Made by a program: the position numbers and the translations under genes. Below the pieces are notes generated by a model, which made no database searches, was not told the origin of the DNA, and saw nothing but the letters and a program-made list of their open reading frames with translations. Below, piece by piece: positions 2,324 to 39,143 of a stretch of DNA of 42,318 nucleotides; position 1 is the stretch's first letter, and each line of letters begins with the position of its first letter. This DNA comes from Clostridiales bacterium (GTDB lineage Bacteria; Bacillota; Clostridia; Christensenellales; JAISNN01), in NCBI GenBank assembly GCA_031273825.1, contig JAISRB010000041.1:1-42318 (forward strand), written 5' to 3'.

Positions 2324-3610
2324 TTATAAATTAGAATAAATATCCTCAAAGAAAGTAAGCGCGCCGCGATATCCCGCGCACGGGCGGTTATAAATCAGCC
2401 GCTCGGTGTTGGGATAAGACGCAATAAAAAACTGTAAGCCGAGTTTGATTGCTATCTCGTGCTCGTTGGTACTGCCGATCAAAAGCATGGTCTCGGGAAA
2501 TTTTTCTATTATACGGTTTATCTCCCACTGATCGCCCGTAAAAAATATCTCGGGCGGCTTGGCGTATTCAAGGCTGCGCAAGCTCTCCTCTATGCGCGCG
2601 CGGTCATCAGGTCTGAATACTACGTCGGTTATGACGGCCGCGTCGGGCGTAAAGCTATAATCGTTTGCCAAAAAGCGCGTTATGGCGACGACGTTCTGAC
2701 TTTCACCGACGACGGAAAACCTGCGCCAATTTTGCAGGCCTATGCCGGTCTCGAGATAGCGGTAGAGATATTTCTCCTCGCTCCTTATGACGCGCTCGGC
2801 TCTGTCTCCGATTCCGAAAAATTCGCCGACGCGCCTCAAAAATACGCCCGTGTCGGTCGCGCCGAGCGGCGCACCGGCAAAGCGCAGCGACGGTATGCCG
2901 AAACGTCTTTGATATTCCTCCGACGCGCTCTTTAACAGCCACGGCGAGAGAATTATATTGAGCGAGGCCGACGACGAGCTTTTTATTTCTTTCAAGCCCT
3001 GATCGTGTGAAAAAAACGTGTTGACCTTCAAGCCCAAAAGCCGCAAAAGCCGCGTAATTTCCTCGAGGTTGCCCTCCCAATAGGGATCGTGAAAGGGCAT
3101 AATTCCCAAAAGGTTGACTAACCTTTCGTCTCTTTTTTTGGGGTTCGGCTCTACTATATTGTCGAGAAAGGCCTTTATCGCGATTTCGTAGCCCCTGCAG
3201 CTTTCACCCAAAAAGCCCGCGGAGTTGACGGCGTAAACCTTATGACCCATGGCGCGGTATTTTTTTGCCACGCTCTCCGTATCGTCGCCTATTATGCCCG
3301 CCGTACAGCCCGTAAGTATAAAAAGCGCGTCCGCGTCGAGGATTTCGAGGGCGGCGGCGACGTGCTTGTCTAGCTTGCCGACTCCGCCCAAAACGACGTC
3401 GCGCTCGGTCATGTTGGTGCAAGGAATAGAGGTGTACTGAACGTAATAGGGCAGGCGTATGCTCCCCTGACTCGTCTCGCCCGCCGTCGTCTGCATACAG
3501 CAGCCCGGCCCGGAATGAAATATCGGGATAACTCTTTTTACCGCGGTAAACGCCGCGTTCGCGCCGCCGAGCGCGCAATTTCCGTGCGGATTTTCCAAAA
3601 TATTCGACAT
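2324..3610 (-). CDS. nitrogenase component 1-like protein, NifK-like (beta-type) subunit
   Basis: 428 residues, with the beta-type pattern of P-cluster cysteines: Cys12 in NPHGNCALGG, Cys37 in HSGPGCC, and Cys102 in LTGCTAGIIGDD. The 25-residue spacing between the first two equals that between Cys70 and Cys95 of Azotobacter NifK. The block NMTERDVVLGG matches the SDSMTEDAAVFGG region of NifK. It is about 100 residues shorter than NifK because the long N-terminal extension is missing. It should pair with the NifD-like subunit encoded 11 bases upstream to form an (alpha-beta)2 reductase that takes electrons from the NifH-like protein. A ribosome-binding site AAGGAG precedes the ATG. It is not NifN-like in the sense of a scaffold, because all three P-cluster ligands are present. 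The substrate is unknown. Confidence 0.9.
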   Translation of the reverse strand: MSNILENPHGNCALGGANAAFTAVKRVIPIFHSGPGCCMQTTAGETSQGSIRLPYYVQYTSIPCTNMTERDVVLGGVGKLDKHVAAALEILDADALFILTGCTAGIIGDDTESVAKKYRAMGHKVYAVNSAGFLGESCRGYEIAIKAFLDNIVEPNPKKRDERLVNLLGIMPFHDPYWEGNLEEITRLLRLLGLKVNTFFSHDQGLKEIKSSSSASLNIILSPWLLKSASEEYQRRFGIPSLRFAGAPLGATDTGVFLRRVGEFFGIGDRAERVIRSEEKYLYRYLETGIGLQNWRRFSVVGESQNVVAITRFLANDYSFTPDAAVITDVVFRPDDRARIEESLRSLEYAKPPEIFFTGDQWEINRIIEKFPETMLLIGSTNEHEIAIKLGLQFFIASYPNTERLIYNRPCAGYRGALTFFEDIYSNL

Positions 3611-3621
3611 TAACGGACTCC

Positions 3622-5070
3622 TTATTTTTGTATATATTTAAAGGCGTTTTCCTCATACCACGACTTTTTATAAGGCAGACGGGCATATTCGGCTATTTTT
3701 TTATTGTAGCCGGGGTTTTCTGTCTGACAAGCTATTTTGTTGCCCAGATATACGAGGTTTCTATAGCCCATAGTCGGACGCTTGATGTCCAAAACGTGCG
3801 TCGTCGGAATGCCGAGCTTTGCCGCCCAAACGGGAATGCCGATAAAAACGTCGGGCTTTAGCTTGCTCAAAAGGTTGACCTGCTCAAACGGCATCATGTT
3901 GGCCACGTCGACGACAAAATTTCCGTAGAGCGCGTTGAGATATTCGATATCGATTTGCGCGTCGTCGTCGTAGACGGGGGTTTGCATTCCGACGAGCCTC
4001 ATTCCGAAGTCGTCGATGAGCGCGGCGGCGGCAAACGAACGCCCCGTGCCGCCCGTAATAAAGACGCGCTTTCCCGACAGACGCTCTCTCAGCCCGTCCA
4101 TCAGCGGACGGATTTTTTCGCGTTCGGCGGCGATATACCCGCGAGCCTCCTCCGTCTTGTCAAACAACGCCGCGACGCCGAGCAGCCATTTGTCCGTGTT
4201 TCTCGTGCCGATAGGCATTATCGTATGCGAATAAGAAATTCCGTATTCGTCCTTCAATTCCTTCATAAATTCGTCGGCAAAAACCTTGCAAATTGCCGTC
4301 GACGCGCGCGCGGAGGGGATTTTGCGGATTTTTTCTAACGAGGAATAAAAGGGAATATAGTTGACCCTTATTCCTATGTCGCCGAGTATGCGCTCGATTT
4401 CGAGTCGGTCGTGATAGCTGACGGTCGGCGGCGCGAAAAGGTTCAACAAATCCGGCTCGGTCTCGCCTCTTTTCGCGCCGCGCAATATATATTTTGTCAT
4501 AGCCAAAAACGCCGCGTCATAGCCCGACGCGCATATCTTTGACTTAAAGCCCTCGCAATGCAAGGGAACTATGACCGAGTCGGTTTCCCTTTGCAGCTCG
4601 CTTACGGCCGCCTCTATATCGTCGCCTATAATCGCCGACGCACAGGAGGTAAAGATAAAAATAAGCTTAGGCGCATATCTCTCGCAAGCCGTTCTGACGG
4701 CCTTTTTCAGCTTTTCCTCACCGCCTAATATTACGTCCTTTTCGTCAAGATTGGTGACGATTATGCGCGCGTTGCGTAAGCCGTAATTGCCCCTATGAAG
4801 CTGCCCTACGCGAAACCAATCGTTTGCCATACTGCAGCAGCCGGCGCACCCTAAGGGCGAATGAACGACAAACGCCGCGTCGTCGACGGAAAGCAGAGCC
4901 ATAACCGAGTTAATCTGCTGACACTGCAATCCTTGCGAAAAAATGCGGTCGGCGCGGCCGAGACAATTTTTAGGATATTTTTCGCCCGCCTCGAGACTGC
5001 CCCCGCCCCAATCGGTGTAGGTGTCGGTATCGCGCCTTTGCTCCCTTATTCCCGAATAATTTTTTGACAT
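3622..5070 (-). CDS. nitrogenase component 1-like protein, NifD-like (alpha-type) subunit
   Basis: 482 residues. Three P-cluster cysteines align with NifD Cys62, Cys88 and Cys154: Cys50 (GLQCQQ), Cys75 (SPLGC) and Cys143 (TSCASAIIGDD). Cys261 lies 15 residues before YGISY, exactly as NifD Cys275, the FeMo-cofactor iron ligand, lies before YGIPW. The second cofactor ligand, His442, is not in register: after GIP the aligned residue is Leu, although His425 sits two residues earlier. In the HCEGFK block the residues equivalent to NifD Gln191 and His195 are Cys180 and Tyr184. I read this as a metallocluster-binding catalytic subunit that is not a standard N2-reducing enzyme. Relatives to compare are methylthio-alkane reductase and other group IV nitrogenase-like proteins. 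Start ATG is behind GGGAG. Confidence 0.9.
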   Translation of the reverse strand: MSKNYSGIREQRRDTDTYTDWGGGSLEAGEKYPKNCLGRADRIFSQGLQCQQINSVMALLSVDDAAFVVHSPLGCAGCCSMANDWFRVGQLHRGNYGLRNARIIVTNLDEKDVILGGEEKLKKAVRTACERYAPKLIFIFTSCASAIIGDDIEAAVSELQRETDSVIVPLHCEGFKSKICASGYDAAFLAMTKYILRGAKRGETEPDLLNLFAPPTVSYHDRLEIERILGDIGIRVNYIPFYSSLEKIRKIPSARASTAICKVFADEFMKELKDEYGISYSHTIMPIGTRNTDKWLLGVAALFDKTEEARGYIAAEREKIRPLMDGLRERLSGKRVFITGGTGRSFAAAALIDDFGMRLVGMQTPVYDDDAQIDIEYLNALYGNFVVDVANMMPFEQVNLLSKLKPDVFIGIPVWAAKLGIPTTHVLDIKRPTMGYRNLVYLGNKIACQTENPGYNKKIAEYARLPYKKSWYEENAFKYIQK

Positions 5071-5171: not shown

Positions 5172-6251
5172 TCAGTTTTTCGGCGTATGCCCAAAGTACA
5201 TAAGCTCCCAAAGCGCGGGCGCTTCGACTTTTTCTATCAAGCCTTCGCCGTCAAATTTTTCGACGCGGACGGTTCCCGAAAAGCGGTGATAAGCCCCGTC
5301 AAAGCCTATCAGCTTTGCCGCGAATTTCTTTATGCCCTTTAGCTGATCGACCATTCTATAGTTTATTACGCTCGATTTGCGCTCGTATGTAATTTTGTAG
5401 CGGACAGCGCCGTCCTTATAGTCGTAGGTCAGCTTGTTATGCACGGGCTTTCCCGTCTTAGGCTCGATAAATTCGTCCTCCGCCTCAAAGGTCAGCTTTG
5501 ACGCGTCGTCTCCCAAAACTGCGCCGTCCTTTGCTATCATAAACACGGGATATTCCTTATATCCGTATTTTTTTTCGCCGGTTATATAAGAGGATATAAT
5601 TTGATAGCCGCCCGCCTTAGCCCTCCCCCAATACCAATGGTTCATCAGCCTTGTCATAAGCTCGTTGCCCCAATTGTGGTCGTGATAACCGGTGCCCTTG
5701 TGCCGCGCCGTCACGCCGTTAAGCGTTATCTCGGCCTCCGCGTCGCCCTCGGGCACGGAGGGCAGCCACGCAAAATATTTTTCGTCGTCGTCGCCGAAAA
5801 ATATGTGTCCCGTCTCGGGCCGCCACGGCGGGGTGTTTGACTTTAGCCTTGCCTTGACCTCTATCACGGGGTTTTTAAAATAGATTTCATATTCGTCAAG
5901 ATTGCCGCATATATAGCAGTCGCCTACCTTGACGTCGCATTTTTCTTTAGACGCGGAAAAGGAAACGCCGTCGATTTCTACGCGTTCCTCATAATGTCCG
6001 CCGTCGGGCGTGTCGAGGTCGACGGTGACATAAGGCGCGGGCGGCTTTTCGGGCGACATCATGCGCTTGGTATAAAAAACTATGACAAGCGACGTTCCGT
6101 CGTCCATATGCGAATCGAAATACCACCACTCATAAAAGCCCTTATCGCCGCCCGTGCGGATTCCGTCCTCTCTTTGCGCGACGGTTTTTGTCAGCCCGAG
6201 CCGCCCGTACCTTTCAAGCGGGGCTAAGCCCGATTTTATAATGTGTTTCAT
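5172..6251 (-). CDS. CrtC/AttH-like lipocalin-domain protein
   Basis: 359 residues resembling the tandem lipocalin-like domains of the CrtC (carotenoid 1,2-hydratase)/AttH family. Seen motifs are YEWWYFD (residues 40-46) in the N-terminal domain, GTGYHDHNWG (187-195) at the domain junction, and WYWGRA nearby; the HDHNWG block is the family hallmark. No signal peptide is visible, so it is probably cytoplasmic. Characterised relatives bind hydrophobic small molecules and hydrate double bonds or guide cyclisations. The gene sits 17 bases after the NifH-like gene and before the NifDK-like pair, with a strong AAGGAG site. That places it inside the reductase operon, where it could bind or pre-process a lipophilic or unsaturated substrate. 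The family call is good; the chemistry is unknown. Confidence 0.8.
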   Translation of the reverse strand: MKHIIKSGLAPLERYGRLGLTKTVAQREDGIRTGGDKGFYEWWYFDSHMDDGTSLVIVFYTKRMMSPEKPPAPYVTVDLDTPDGGHYEERVEIDGVSFSASKEKCDVKVGDCYICGNLDEYEIYFKNPVIEVKARLKSNTPPWRPETGHIFFGDDDEKYFAWLPSVPEGDAEAEITLNGVTARHKGTGYHDHNWGNELMTRLMNHWYWGRAKAGGYQIISSYITGEKKYGYKEYPVFMIAKDGAVLGDDASKLTFEAEDEFIEPKTGKPVHNKLTYDYKDGAVRYKITYERKSSVINYRMVDQLKGIKKFAAKLIGFDGAYHRFSGTVRVEKFDGEGLIEKVEAPALWELMYFGHTPKN

Positions 6252-6268: not shown

Positions 6269-7123
6269 TTATACTATTCCTTGCTCTTCGTCAAGCAATC
6301 TATCCGCCCACCCGGACGCCCACGCCCTAAGCTCGCCCGTTTCGAGAGGCGACGGCACATAAGACAGCTCGTGCGCGGCGATTTTTTCGGCAAGGCGCGT
6401 ATATACCGCCGCCTGAGCCGACCCTTGCGCGTCCTCTATTACGGTTTTGCCGCGCAGCTCGCTTTGCGTGACCGTCACCGAGCGCGGCACGTAGTCTATG
6501 ACCTTGGTTTTTGTACGCCGCGCAAAGTCGTCGACTATGTCGCGCGAATACTGCTTGTTTATCGAGTTTGCGATTACGCCGCCCAAAAGCGCGCCGCCCG
6601 AGTCCGAATATTTCTGTATGCCCTTAAAGAGATTGTTGGCGGCGTAAACCGCCATAAAATCCGCCGAGGTCACTGTGAACACATGCTCGGCTATTCCCTC
6701 GCGTATAGGCATTGCGAAGCCGCCGCAAACGACGTCGCCCAAAACGTCGTATATGACAAAGTCTAAATCGAGACTCTCATATACCCTCTGCTGTCTAAAT
6801 AGCTCGACCGCCGTAATAATTCCGCGCCCCGCGCAGCCCACCCCGGGAGCCGGCCCGCCGGCCTCTACGCAATATATGCCGTTGAAGCCCTCAAAAATTA
6901 CGTCCGCCGCGTTGACGATCGATTTTTCGCGCATGGCGTCCAAAACCGTCGGAATATAATTGCCGCCCCTCAGCGTATTTGTCGAGTCGCTCTTAGGGTC
7001 GCAGCCAAATTGCATGACCCTATAGCCGAGCCTGCTCAACGCCGCGCTGATGTTTGACGTCGTTGTCGATTTGCCTATGCCGCCCTTTCCGTAGACGGCT
7101 ATTTGCTTGATTTTTTTTGCCAT
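6269..7123 (-). CDS. NifH-type Fe protein (dinitrogenase reductase-like ATPase)
   Basis: 284 residues, close to the usual NifH length. It has the Walker A loop [10 protein letters not shown] (residues 12-21), the GCDPKSDST switch segment, Cys97 in GVGCAGRG and Cys133 in [11 protein letters not shown]. These two cysteines bridge the 4Fe-4S cluster between the two subunits of the homodimer. Arg100, the ADP-ribosylation site of classical NifH, is kept. The protein hydrolyses ATP to pass single electrons to its component 1 partner, here the NifDK-like pair downstream. It also supplies electrons in cofactor maturation in true nitrogenases. Identity to canonical NifH is high around the cluster, while the 50-80 region diverges. 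Start ATG follows AAGGAAAAACAA. BchL, ChlL and CfbC are alternatives, but the adjacent nifB and nifX favour a NifB-dependent system. Confidence 0.92.
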
Positions 7124-7172: not shown

Positions 7173-7520
7173 CTATCCTTCCGTCATTTTGACGTGTTTT
7201 ATCAGCTTTATGAGCGCGTCCTCTATCGCCGCCGCGTCCTCCAAGACTACCGCGCCTCTCGTGTAGAAGTATTCTTTTACGGCAAGTCCCGCGCGCTCGG
7301 TCAGGACAAATTTGCAGTCCTTCAACACCTCGTATACGTTTTCTACCGCCCCGTCGCCGTGACCGTCGCAACCGCACAAAGGCTCCGCCCGCCGCTCCTC
7401 TATATAGCGCGTTTCGGCGGTTTGAGTGTCTATCTCGGCTATCAAAAACCTGTCGCAACGCCCGAAATGCCGATTGACAAGCCTTCCGTCGCCGCTTGCT
7501 ACCGCGACCCTGCAGCGCAT
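7173..7520 (-). CDS. nifX: NifX/NafY-family iron-molybdenum cofactor binding protein
   Basis: A single-domain protein of 115 residues from the start chosen here. It opens with RVAVASGDG and NRHFGRCDRF, the typical beginning of the dinitrogenase iron-molybdenum cofactor-binding domain, followed by a CGCDGHGD segment. I chose ATG 7520 rather than ATG 7538 because GGAGG lies eight bases before it, while the upstream ATG has no ribosome-binding site. Family members carry NifB-co or FeMo-co between maturation proteins. Lying between nifB and nifH, it probably receives the NifB cluster and passes it to the NifDK-like complex. The family also contains domains of uncertain role, so the symbol is by homology only. 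Confidence 0.8.
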   Translation of the reverse strand: MRCRVAVASGDGRLVNRHFGRCDRFLIAEIDTQTAETRYIEERRAEPLCGCDGHGDGAVENVYEVLKDCKFVLTERAGLAVKEYFYTRGAVVLEDAAAIEDALIKLIKHVKMTEG

Positions 7521-7568
7521 AAAATATTCCTCCCGCATTTTTAATATAAGTCAAAATAAAGGTTTCGG

Positions 7569-8438
7569 CTATCCGTGCGAAAACGTCTCCGTCGCGTTTT
7601 TATACAACGAGGGCGCGTATTCGCTGACCCCGGGAATTCCGCAAGCGTCGGCTCTGCACCGCTTGCAATGCTTAAACACCGGCAAATACTCTTCGGCGGT
7701 CTCTCTCGCTTCGGCCAGCATACGGCAATCGGGCGGAGGCGTATTTTGAAATTCGCCTTGCGGAATAAGCGGAATGATATTATACATATTTGCCCCGGCT
7801 AAGGCCGCGGCTTTTGCGATATCCCCTATATGGCTGTCGTTGACCCCGGGAATAAGCACGGTGTTTACCTTGACGACGGCAAATTTGCTTGCGAGGCGTA
7901 TGCCGTCAAGCTGATTGCGTATGAGAATTTCCGCGCCTCTTACGCCGCCGTAAACCGTACCGTCATAAGTGACCGCGGAAATAATATCTTTTAAGACGTT
8001 TGAATCGACGGCGTTGACCGTCACGGTGACGCTTGTCACGCCGACCCCCTTTAGCGCGTCCGCGTAACGCGGCAGCATGAGACCGTTTGTGCTAAGGCAC
8101 CTTATAAGCTTTGGATAAAGGCGGCCGACCCCGCCGAAAACCTCCACCGCGTCGTCCGTCGCAAGCGGGTCTCCCGGTCCCGCGATTCCGACTACCGTTA
8201 TGTCGGGGCAAAGCCAAAGGGCTTTTTTGACGGTCTCCAACGCGCCGGAACGCGTCAAAAGCTCCGCCGCGACCCCCGGGCGGTTGTCGGACAGACCTAA
8301 TCCGCGCGAACAAAACCGACAGCATATATTACAGCGCGGCGAAACCGGAAGGTGAAGCCTCCCGTAGCGCGCGCCCTCCTCTCCGCCGAAACACGGATGA
8401 AAAGCCTTTATTTGTCCCTCAAAAGCCCCGAATGCCAC
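7569..8438 (-). CDS. nifB: NifB radical SAM cofactor maturase
   Basis: A stand-alone NifB (no fused NifX domain) of about 289 residues. Seen motifs: HPCFGGEEGARYGRLH with Cys16, the radical SAM triad CNICCRFC (Cys36, Cys40, Cys43), AGPGDPLAT, KVNTVLIPGVND, YNIIPLIPQ, and the C-terminal HCKRCRADACGIPG with Cys258 and Cys261. The extra cysteines are those that hold the K1/K2 clusters in NifB. The enzyme fuses two 4Fe-4S clusters and inserts a SAM-derived carbide to make NifB-co, an 8Fe-9S-C cluster. GTG 8438 is preferred because GGAG lies seven bases upstream; TTG 8450, 12 bases earlier, lacks such a site. It is the first gene of the operon. Its presence means the complex needs more than a simple 4Fe-4S cluster. 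Confidence 0.93.
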   Translation of the reverse strand: MAFGAFEGQIKAFHPCFGGEEGARYGRLHLPVSPRCNICCRFCSRGLGLSDNRPGVAAELLTRSGALETVKKALWLCPDITVVGIAGPGDPLATDDAVEVFGGVGRLYPKLIRCLSTNGLMLPRYADALKGVGVTSVTVTVNAVDSNVLKDIISAVTYDGTVYGGVRGAEILIRNQLDGIRLASKFAVVKVNTVLIPGVNDSHIGDIAKAAALAGANMYNIIPLIPQGEFQNTPPPDCRMLAEARETAEEYLPVFKHCKRCRADACGIPGVSEYAPSLYKNATETFSHG

Positions 8439-8482
8439 TCGATTCTCCAACGCATACTATATATATATGTTTTAACAGTAAT

Positions 8483-8511
8483 ATTATATATCTAAAAACA
8501 AAATAAGTCAA
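8483..8511 (-). promoter_or_regulatory. sigma-A promoter of the nifB operon
   Basis: On the minus strand TTGACT (8511-8506) is followed by a 17-base spacer and a perfect TATAAT (8488-8483). Transcription should begin near 8476, about 38 bases before the nifB GTG. No sigma-54 (GG-N10-GC) promoter is seen, so control differs from proteobacterial nif genes. Confidence 0.85.
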
Positions 8512-8676: not shown

Positions 8677-9591
8677 TTAATCGGAGACTTTTTCAAATTG
8701 TATATAAGGACTAATATAGGTTAATACCGTTATAACGCCGTCGGCGCTTACGCAACCGACGGAAAGCACGTCGCCCGCGTTGAAATAGTAAATTACCTCG
8801 TCTTGTACGTTTTCGCTTGTAAGGTTGCGGTCAAAATATGCCCAAACTATGGTTTGAGATATCAATTGATTGTTGTTATATAGCGCGTATACGTTTGACT
8901 CGGGGGTGGTTGACGGCGTTGCGACCAGCATGACAAATTTGAAGTATACGCGGTAATATCCGCTTTCCGTCACCTCAAATCTATCGTTGCTTATCTGCCG
9001 CACCTTGGAGTTTACGTCCGCCGTAATCGTTGGAAACTCGACGTTAGTTGTACGAATGTCCGCCGACGCGACCGATTGACTGCTATAATTCGCGGCCGCT
9101 AACACATTATAAGGATAACCCGGCCCTTGGACGCCTTGCGGCCCTTGGACGCCTTGCGGTCCTTGCACGCCCTGCGGCCCTTGAATGTTGCCCACGTTGT
9201 CCCACGCGCCGCTGTTTGCGCTCCAAACATACAGATCGCCGTTGACAAGGTATGCGTCGCCGACGTTTCCCGTCGGGTGTGCGGCGATAAGGTCGGCAAG
9301 CGAGTTATAAGAGCCGAGGATTCTGACGCCCGTTCCGTCGGTTCCGTTTGCGCCCTGCGGTCCTTGAATACCCTGCGGCCCTTGCGCGCCCTGTATCCCC
9401 TGCGGGCCGGCGGGACCCGGCTCGCCCTGCGGCCCTTCCTTTCCGGCCGGTCCGCAAGCTCCCGGCCGCCCCCTCGCGCCCTTAGGTCCTGCCGGGCCTA
9501 CGCAACGGCAACAGCAATCGATTCGACCGCATCTTTTGCAGGAATCTCCGCCGCAACCGCCGCTATCAAAAAAATCACATGAATTATTCAA
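8677..9591 (-). CDS. collagen-like (Gly-X-Y) surface or spore-coat protein
   Basis: 304 residues. A cysteine-rich head (residues 5-30, eight Cys) leads into Gly-X-Y triplets of the GPQGIQG/GPQGVQG type in two blocks (about 32-87 and 138-158). The blocks are interrupted by a folded segment containing [14 protein letters not shown], which resembles a repeat seen in bacterial and phage collagen-like proteins. The C-terminal 140 residues look like a trimeric C1q/TNF-like beta domain ([11 protein letters not shown]). Such proteins form exosporium or surface filaments, with the tail driving trimer assembly. There is no signal peptide, as is usual for spore-coat versions. Start is TTG 9591, supported by AAGGAGG eight bases upstream. 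It is a single-gene unit ended by a strong terminator. Location on the spore is inferred. Confidence 0.85.
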
Positions 9592-37349: not shown

Positions 37350-38267
37350 ATGAACGAAGATTTTTGCCGAACGGCCGACGACATGTCGTCCTGTCGGCTA
37401 TGCCCCAACGATTGCAAGGTAAACAGACGTTCGTCCTTAGGCAAATGCTTGTCAAACGACAAGCCCGCGTTAGCCCGCGCCGCTCTGCATTTTTTTGAGG
37501 AGCCTTGCGTCAGCGGACGGCGCGGCTCGGGCGCGGTTTTCTTTTGCGGCTGCGGTATGCGCTGCGTCTTTTGCCAAAACTACGGGCTGTCGCGCAACCA
37601 AAAGGGCAAAGAGCTTTCGACCGCAAAATTGGCGGACGTATTTAAAGCCTTAGAGGCAAAGGGCGCGCACAATATCAACCTTGTCAGCCCCTCTCATTTT
37701 GCGCCGCAAATAATGGAAAGCTTAGATATCTACCGCCCGAAAATCCCCGTAATTTATAACACAAGCGGATATGAACGGCGCGATACTATAGCGCGTCTTT
37801 CGGGCTATATAGACGTCTACCTGACCGACTTAAAATACGTCGATTCAAATGCGGCAAAAGAGCTGTCGGGCAGACCCGACTATCCCCTTTTTGCAATAGA
37901 CGCTATCGGCGAAATGATAGCCCGCGCGGGCCGTCCGGTTTTTGACGGCGACGGCATGATAACAAGCGGAGTCATAATACGCCATTTGGTAATTCCGTCT
38001 TATATACAAAACAGCATAGACACCATAGAGACGATAGCCCGCCTCTTTAAGGACGACGCGCTGATAAGCATTATGAGTCAATATACTCCGCTTAGCGCGT
38101 TGAAGCTGCCCGACAAAATCAACCGCCGCCTAAAGCCCATAGAATACAAAATCGTCCTCAAAAAAGCCGCCGACCTCGGCATAGACAACGCCTACGTTCA
38201 AAGGCTAAGCTCGGCTAAGGAGGATTACATTCCCGAATTCGACTTTGAAGGGTTAGACGGCGGCTAA
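37350..38267 (+). CDS. PflX-type radical SAM protein (pyruvate-formate-lyase-activase-like)
   Basis: 305 residues. An N-terminal cysteine set (Cys15, Cys18, Cys22, Cys33) precedes the radical SAM motif CGMRCVFC (Cys68, Cys72, Cys75). NLVSPSHFAPQI, YNTSGYER and YLTDLKYVD continue the barrel. This is the COG1313 family, annotated as PflA-like, but its true target is unknown. No glycyl-radical enzyme lies next to it. It is divergent from comEC with only 20 bases between the start codons and has no ribosome-binding site, consistent with a leaderless mRNA. Confidence 0.86.
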   Translation: MNEDFCRTADDMSSCRLCPNDCKVNRRSSLGKCLSNDKPALARAALHFFEEPCVSGRRGSGAVFFCGCGMRCVFCQNYGLSRNQKGKELSTAKLADVFKALEAKGAHNINLVSPSHFAPQIMESLDIYRPKIPVIYNTSGYERRDTIARLSGYIDVYLTDLKYVDSNAAKELSGRPDYPLFAIDAIGEMIARAGRPVFDGDGMITSGVIIRHLVIPSYIQNSIDTIETIARLFKDDALISIMSQYTPLSALKLPDKINRRLKPIEYKIVLKKAADLGIDNAYVQRLSSAKEDYIPEFDFEGLDGG

Positions 38268-38275
38268 CAAGCTGC

Positions 38276-38292
38276 GGCCTTTTGAGAAGGCC
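38276..38292. other. hairpin between convergent genes
   Basis: GGCCTT/AAGGCC stem with a five-base loop, overlapping the end of the permease gene. No good T tract follows on either strand, so a terminator role is uncertain. Confidence 0.4.
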
Positions 38293-39143
38293 TAAAACAG
38301 CTGAAATATGACGCCCGACAGCACGGCGACAAAATAGAGTATGCCGACGACCCTAAAGGCCTTTGCCTTGCTTTTGCCGCTCTTAAACAGGGCTATTATT
38401 CCGACGCCCGAGTTTGTGATAAGCCCCGCCAAAACCGACGCGAAGGACAGCGTTCCCTCCATATAGAGGTCGGTCAAAATGACCGACGAGGCGCAGCTCG
38501 GAATAAAGCCGAAAAGCGCGGTGACAAACGGCTGAAAGAAGCTGCCCTTTAGCAAAAAGTCAGAAACCCTCTCCTCGCCTATAAAAAATATTATAAGCTC
38601 GAACAGCAAAAAAAAGGCGACTATATAGGCAAATATGACCGCCGTATGCTTGAGCGCGGCATAAAATATATTTTGAGTGCGGCAACAGCCGCAGGGCTGC
38701 GCGTCCGCGCCGTCTATACCGTCCGCGCCGTCCGCGACGGCCTTTATATCGGGCTTTTTTAGACCGCCCTTTGCAAAGAGGTCGATGACAAGCCCCGCCG
38801 CGACGGCTATAATCAGCTTTGCGCCCATGAGATACGCAACGTCGCCTATCATGCCCGGGCGGCTCAAAAGTATGATGAGAGCCTCGTCCGAGGTGGCGGC
38901 AAACACGGCGACGAGGGTTCCCAAGGTGATAAAGCCCGACGAATACAGGCTCGCCGCCGCAGGCGTAAAGCCGCATTGCGGAATCATGCCGATAAACGCC
39001 CCCGGAATACTCCCGAACCGTCCGGAAATAAACCTTATGACGTTTGTCCTTCTTTCTATAAACTCAACCAAAAGATACGCCGCGTACAAAAACGGAAGTA
39101 TCTTGAGCGAATCGATAAGAACGTCTAATAATACCTCGCCCAT
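38292..39143 (-). CDS. putative heavy-metal exporter / permease (ArsP_2, DUF2899-like)
   Basis: 283 residues with about eight to ten membrane segments in two related halves. The first half carries MIPQCGFTPAAASLYSSGFI, the second FIPSCASSVILTDLYMEGTL; such Cys-containing paired motifs mark the ArsP_2 group. The linker (about 135-160) is Gly/Asp-rich and ends in QPCGCC, a possible metal-binding patch. Members are proposed metal or arsenical exporters. It follows the hydrolase gene by 21 bases. The substrate is unknown and the ribosome-binding site is weak. Confidence 0.75.
   Translation of the reverse strand: MGEVLLDVLIDSLKILPFLYAAYLLVEFIERRTNVIRFISGRFGSIPGAFIGMIPQCGFTPAAASLYSSGFITLGTLVAVFAATSDEALIILLSRPGMIGDVAYLMGAKLIIAVAAGLVIDLFAKGGLKKPDIKAVADGADGIDGADAQPCGCCRTQNIFYAALKHTAVIFAYIVAFFLLFELIIFFIGEERVSDFLLKGSFFQPFVTALFGFIPSCASSVILTDLYMEGTLSFASVLAGLITNSGVGIIALFKSGKSKAKAFRVVGILYFVAVLSGVIFQLF

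Follow-up and report, generated by a model that had tools for sequence, protein, structure and literature searches.

The window analysed here is a stretch of 42,318 nucleotides of DNA from a Clostridiales bacterium. On its minus strand are six closely spaced genes in the order nifB-nifX-nifH-lipocalin-D-K, running from position 8450 down to 2324 with intergenic gaps of 11 to 101 bases. The features of this operon are as follows.

8483..8511, minus strand: sigma-70-like promoter (TTGACT-17-TATAAT, 11/12) directly upstream of nifB, a consensus match only
7569..8450, minus strand: NifB-type radical SAM enzyme, 293 aa, with the motifs HPCF, CNICCRFC, NRPGV, AGPGD, CLSTNG and CKRCRADACG
7173..7538, minus strand: NifX/NafY-type cluster-binding domain protein (PF02579)
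6269..7123, minus strand: NifH-type reductase, 284 aa, with P-loop (12-19) and [4Fe-4S] cysteines Cys97 and Cys133
5172..6251, minus strand: lipocalin-type protein (AttH/CrtC/Diels-Alderase fold), 359 aa
3622..5070, minus strand: D subunit (NifD/MarD-like, D1 clade), 482 aa
4921-4923, 4846-4848 and 4642-4644, minus strand: codons of the D P-cluster cysteines Cys50, Cys75 and Cys143
4531-4533 and 4519-4521, minus strand: codons of D Cys180 and Tyr184, at the Gln191 and His195 positions of NifD
4288-4290, minus strand: codon of the D cofactor cysteine, Cys261
4039-4041, minus strand: codon of D Arg344
3796-3798, minus strand: codon of D His425, candidate second ligand
2324..3610, minus strand: K subunit (NifK/MarK-like), 428 aa, with P-cluster Cys12, Cys37 and Cys102

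The span of the D reading frame is exactly that given by an earlier, sequence-only reading of this DNA. The nifB and nifX reading frames are in the same frame and were considered as a broken fusion or a case of recoding; this was rejected, as two stop codons lie between them and relatives have two genes. No Rfam elements were found near the operon, the single Rfam match in the whole window being a tRNA. Directly upstream of the operon, positions 8677-9591 encode a protein with collagen repeats and a weak C-terminal match to BclA, of the spore-surface or adhesin type, while at 37350-39143 a radical SAM protein adjoins a putative heavy-metal exporter (ArsP_2) in the opposite orientation. The host genome is a 1.74 Mb draft, 89% complete, and the gene absences given for it are therefore provisional. 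The named relatives nearest to it are metagenome-assembled genomes of Clostridiales/Oscillospiraceae, which, judged by their isolate codes, appear to be derived from termite guts.

The D reading frame encodes a full-length PF00148 protein (256.7 bits). Against NCBIfam the best score was for nifE (173 bits, cut-off 505), with nifD at 131 bits (cut-off 654). Among solved proteins, D is closest to MarD (239 bits, next 125 bits) and K to MarK (244 bits, next best 93), the subunits of the methylthio-alkane reductase (MAR) of Rhodospirillum rubrum. The AlphaFold2 model of D, built from an input alignment that left out plasmid-derived rows, has a mean pLDDT of 88.5 (residues 421-430 average 88) and its best structural match is also MarD (9fmg_A, Z 40.5), with nitrogenases at about 33-34. 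In phylogenetic trees D falls in its own clade of group-IV nitrogenase-like D subunits, here D1 (support 100/100), which lies outside MAR and D2, the latter being a second, MAR-type pair (D2/K2) described below. D1 was strongly supported in both of the two trees constructed, and in both was outside the clade of MarD and every protein with an Arg-His Loop I; in the tree with larger sampling, it is sister to the MAR clade (SH-aLRT 85).

More than 80 D1 orthologues were identified, in gut and other anaerobes. A scan of genome contigs yielded 174 stretches with genes for relatives of the query, the best 80 of which were read, and D1 proper was found in 3 of the 391 genomes of a class-wide sample, the window's included. 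No relatives were found in viral contigs. A plasmid search with MarD as the query returned one MAR-like relative (Chlorohelix), and among the matches listed nearly all others were Nif or Bch. A distant sister of D1 (L174:1292-3088, 44% identity) keeps His425, Arg344 and Lys430 and has His in place of Cys180.

In many relatives D1/K1 shares its cluster with D2/K2, which has all the MAR hallmarks (Trp195, Phe199 and Arg428-His429). The two pairs occur together in L028, L030, L031, L036, L039, L086 and others, with many Lachnospiraceae and other anaerobes among them. This proximity, and the fact that nifE gave the best NCBIfam score, would fit a NifEN-like scaffold that matures a cluster for another enzyme and has no substrate of its own. 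The nifE score is, however, far below its cut-off, and D1/K1 is the only pair found in the window genome, in two genomes of the same genus (93% completeness) and in that of Eubacterium ruminantium (G406, the genome of L072), where such a scaffold would have no other D/K pair to serve. D1/K1 thus appears to be independent of D2/K2 and not obviously its scaffold, and we consider a scaffold role very unlikely.

The sequence-only reading proposed that D retains the P-cluster cysteines and the cofactor cysteine of nitrogenase, and this holds across the family. Cys50, Cys75 and Cys143 of D align with the P-cluster residues Cys66, Cys91 and Cys158 of R. rubrum MarD (PDB 9fmg), and Cys261 aligns with the MarD cofactor ligand Cys270, the equivalent of NifD Cys275; the proposed spacing of 15 residues from Cys261 to the YGI motif (Tyr276) is also correct. 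Cys50, Cys75, Cys78, Cys143, Cys172, Cys261, His282, Arg344 and His425 are invariant in 82/82 D1 orthologues, and Cys12, Cys37 and Cys102 of K in 78/78 sequences. The three D cysteines together with those of K support a P-cluster, while Cys261 and an operonic NifB with all its cysteine motifs support an interstitial cofactor, both of which had been predicted as likely.

The NifB-type protein scores 270 bits against the archaeal NifB structures 7bi7/7jma and has all the cluster motifs, and the NifH-type protein scores 397 bits against TIGR01287 (cut-off 394) and is the only full-length reductase of this type in the host genome. Neither NifEN nor a second D/K pair was found in the 89% complete genome, nor was any NifV above the curated cut-off (best match 328 bits versus 463). 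The order B-X-H-D-K matches that of a MAR-type locus of Chlorohelix, which has MetY and an ABC transporter next to it. The MAR cluster is [Fe8S9C] without homocitrate (PMC12552129). By analogy with this MAR-like setting (NifB, a single NifH, no NifEN and no NifV above cut-off), [Fe8S9C] is the likeliest cofactor of D.

The sequence-only reading had described the residue equivalent to NifD His442 as out of register and predicted a different second ligand, neither of which is borne out. After the GIP motif, NifD reads FRQMHSWDYSGPYHGY and D1 reads TTHVLDIKRPTMGY, such that D1 is two residues shorter. Counted from this upstream motif, His425 is two residues early with respect to His442; counted back from the downstream Asp and Gly-Tyr motif, it is exactly in register, with H-x-x-D-x3-P-x2-G-[YF] in both proteins, and the Asp three residues after His425 is nearly invariant in a wide alignment. 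Both MAFFT L-INS-i and the profile-profile alignment of D to NifD (HHalign), a check named in that reading, set His425 on NifD His442, while a larger MAFFT run placed the gap after the Asp, leaving His425 two residues away. Of the two Mo-nitrogenase cofactor ligands, Cys275 is matched, and His425 falls on His442 in two of the three alignments. His425 is most likely at the His442 position and is the obvious candidate for the second cofactor ligand.

In a census of the loops, 60 of 146 classifiable D-like proteins carry the His in Loop I alone (its position in MAR), 85 in Loop II alone as HxxD, and one in both loops; a further D1 protein has HxxE in Loop II. This exchange of His between the loops, exclusive in 145/146, supports His425 as the second ligand, with the qualification that few evolutionary events lie behind it. 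In addition, HHalign sets Arg344 on the first Arg of the GGLRPRH motif, which we take to be NifD Arg359, and D therefore appears to retain this second cofactor-contact residue.

The substrate pocket, by contrast with the probable His442 and Arg359 equivalents, the P-cluster cysteines and Cys275 that are common to D1 and Mo-nitrogenase, differs from that of NifDK. Cys180 and Tyr184 align with MarD Trp195 and Phe199, which have been equated with NifD Gln191 and His195 (PMC12552129). Position 180 is Cys in 79/82 D1 orthologues and Trp in none, and position 184 is Phe in 64/82 and Tyr in 18/82, confirming the two replacements and the changed active site originally proposed. The proposal that the substrate is something other than N2 is also likely, mainly because of the phylogeny and the sulfur neighbourhood; on their own, the altered residues are no proof of it. 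In Endomicrobium proavitum, a termite-gut bacterium, a group-IV enzyme said to lack the His has been reported to support 15N2 fixation (PMC4995403), whereas another paper predicts all the ligands in the same enzyme. The genome of E. proavitum also has no NifEN and there are relatives from termite-gut-type assemblies, both of which, together with the nitrogenase-like His425 and Arg344, would suit a D/K pair that reduces N2 despite its changed pocket. Against such an activity are the residues at the Gln191 and His195 positions (Cys in 79/82, Tyr or Phe in 82/82); the minimal set of nifHDKENB plus nifV, which is incomplete here; the sister relationship of D1 to MAR, an enzyme that does not reduce N2; the sulfur genes that adjoin the relatives' loci; and the canonical nif cluster that several relatives carry as well. 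N2 reduction by this operon is accordingly regarded as improbable.

Gene neighbourhoods were compared between 37 orthologous loci, each 15 kb or longer, and 20 control windows from six family-carrying genomes. A cysteine synthase, PatB C-S lyase or Cys/Met PLP enzyme was present at 24/37 loci and in 2/20 controls (P = 6e-5, which overstates the case as the loci are related; the control windows are also few). Cystine/amino-acid-type ABC permeases (23/37), CymR/Rrf2 regulators (9/37) and taurine/sulfonate-type permeases (8/37) were present in 0/20 controls. No sulfur genes are present in the window or at the loci of the nearest relatives, and the link of the operon to sulfur is thus by orthology. 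A sulfite reductase (NIR_SIR family) was not found in the host draft genome, which suggests that the host may need reduced or organic sulfur. The associations at the orthologous loci, together with this absence, favour reductive C-S cleavage with moderate confidence.

Within the family, the lipocalin-type gene was found only in the termite-gut branch. Its product was assigned to the AttH/CrtC/Diels-Alderase fold by fold comparison only, a phmmer search of the PDB giving no match. In two of the loci (L020 and L024) the lipocalin-type protein and a membrane domain are encoded by a single, longer reading frame. One could speculate that this protein processes an organic product. A related possibility is that the operon encodes a P-cluster/[Fe8S9C] reductase of a non-sulfur substrate (a C-N, C-O or C-C bond, or a small inorganic compound), with the lipocalin-type partner acting on the product. 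The window's branch, which is without sulfur genes and has this protein, whose fold is also that of some hydratases and pericyclases, inserted in the operon, is consistent with such a substrate, as is a pocket unlike that of MAR. In Treponema and Oscillospiraceae loci, however, an amino-acid/cystine-type ABC set is found beside D1/K1 and the lipocalin gene, and the wider family is tied to sulfur enzymes. A non-sulfur substrate is therefore considered unlikely.

The gene content, the cysteines, the clade and the lack of both a second D/K pair and a sulfite reductase in the draft genome are best explained by a P-cluster/[Fe8S9C] reductase with nitrogenase-like cofactor ligation that acquires sulfur by cleaving C-S bonds. 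We hold this to be somewhat better than an even chance; the identity of the cluster, ligation by His425, the C-S chemistry and the substrate are those parts which we infer. The product of the operon would be a two-component, ATP-dependent, nitrogenase-like reductase. NifB would make [Fe8S9C], the NifX-domain protein would probably carry it, and D would receive it directly, with no NifEN scaffold in between. Cys261 would ligate one end of the cluster and, most likely, His425 the other, with Arg344 nearby and no homocitrate, in a pocket lined by Cys180 and Tyr/Phe184 in place of Gln191 and His195. Electrons would pass from NifH through a P-cluster shared between D (Cys50/75/143) and K (Cys12/37/102), and an imported organosulfur compound, either amino-acid-like or sulfonate-like, would most likely undergo reductive C-S cleavage to give thiol or sulfide for cysteine and methionine synthesis. 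Besides the sulfur link by orthology, the few control windows, the one divergent alignment and the incomplete draft genome, two further points count against this explanation: the sulfur genes could belong to the MAR-type D2/K2 in the shared clusters, and D1 lacks the MAR hallmarks Trp195, His375 and Arg428-His429.

MAR, which converts methylthio-alkanes to methanethiol and a hydrocarbon, breaks C-S bonds and contains a P-cluster and an [Fe8S9C] cluster, its use of nitrogenase clusters having been shown in 2025 (PMC12552129). The R. rubrum MarBHDK system (PDB 9fmg, 9d9u) is the nearest system with a solved structure, for D as well as for K, and shares with the operon the subunit set, the NifB and NifH partners, the P-cluster cysteines, the cofactor Cys270 and the sulfur-assimilation setting without NifEN or homocitrate. 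D1 differs from MarD in its clade, in having no Trp195, His194 or His375, and in lacking the Loop I insertion with Arg428-His429, a proposed hallmark of MarD (PMC12552129), all aligned D1 representatives having a four-residue deletion here (FI----G(I/V)P); in D1 the NifD 442-like and 359-like positions are instead occupied by His and Arg, respectively. The general kind of protein has been known since 2012, when group-IV clades with Cys275, all said to lack His442 and often near O-acetylhomoserine sulfhydrylase or cysteine synthase, were described (Dos Santos et al. 2012, PMC3464626). D1 is in the same category but probably has His442 after a two-residue shift, and the novelty lies in recognising D1 as a clade of its own that probably has its His in Loop II. 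In a 2026 study, group-IV nifDK genes adjoining a cysteine synthase were found in a termite-gut spirochete. The isethionate reductase IsrBHDK of Rhodobacter capsulatus is also encoded by a group-IV B-H-D-K operon and obtains sulfur from an organic compound (PMC11423573). IsrD has one of the three P-cluster cysteines and neither Cys275 nor His442, and IsrB is a BciD-like, not a NifB-like, radical SAM partner, whereas the window operon has a NifB-type partner and a D subunit with all three P-cluster cysteines.

There is a nearly even chance that D1 is a separate [Fe8S9C] enzyme in which the cofactor is ligated as in nitrogenase (Cys, Loop II His and Arg) but the pocket is not that of nitrogenase, and which catalyses a new reductive reaction in the sulfur metabolism of gut anaerobes. 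If so, both published ligand arrangements would occur among close relatives, which would help to place the ancestral His ligand. The family is common among anaerobes of the rumen and the termite gut and among free-living ones, and an ATP-driven organosulfur reductase in these organisms would affect sulfur cycling and the release of volatile sulfur compounds and hydrocarbons. According to the 2025 MAR structure paper, the second-ligand site in the ancestor shared by MAR and nitrogenase could not be inferred, as the His is in different loops (PMC12552129). D1 is the sister of MAR yet apparently uses the nitrogenase loop, and a third clade has the Loop I His without the Arg, making the question of the ancestral ligand directly testable. 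The D proteins of this third group-IV clade have a Loop I His of the G-HxG type, no Arg428 and an Arg at the Arg359-like position. Its members are listed below.

L175:7753-9273, L176:6970-8481, L177:6086-7651, L178:6855-8366, L181:6298-7824,
L187:3259-4806, L190:1298-2884, L139:3788-5326 and L141:4488-6005

The member from L141 carries both histidines, one in Loop I and the other in Loop II.
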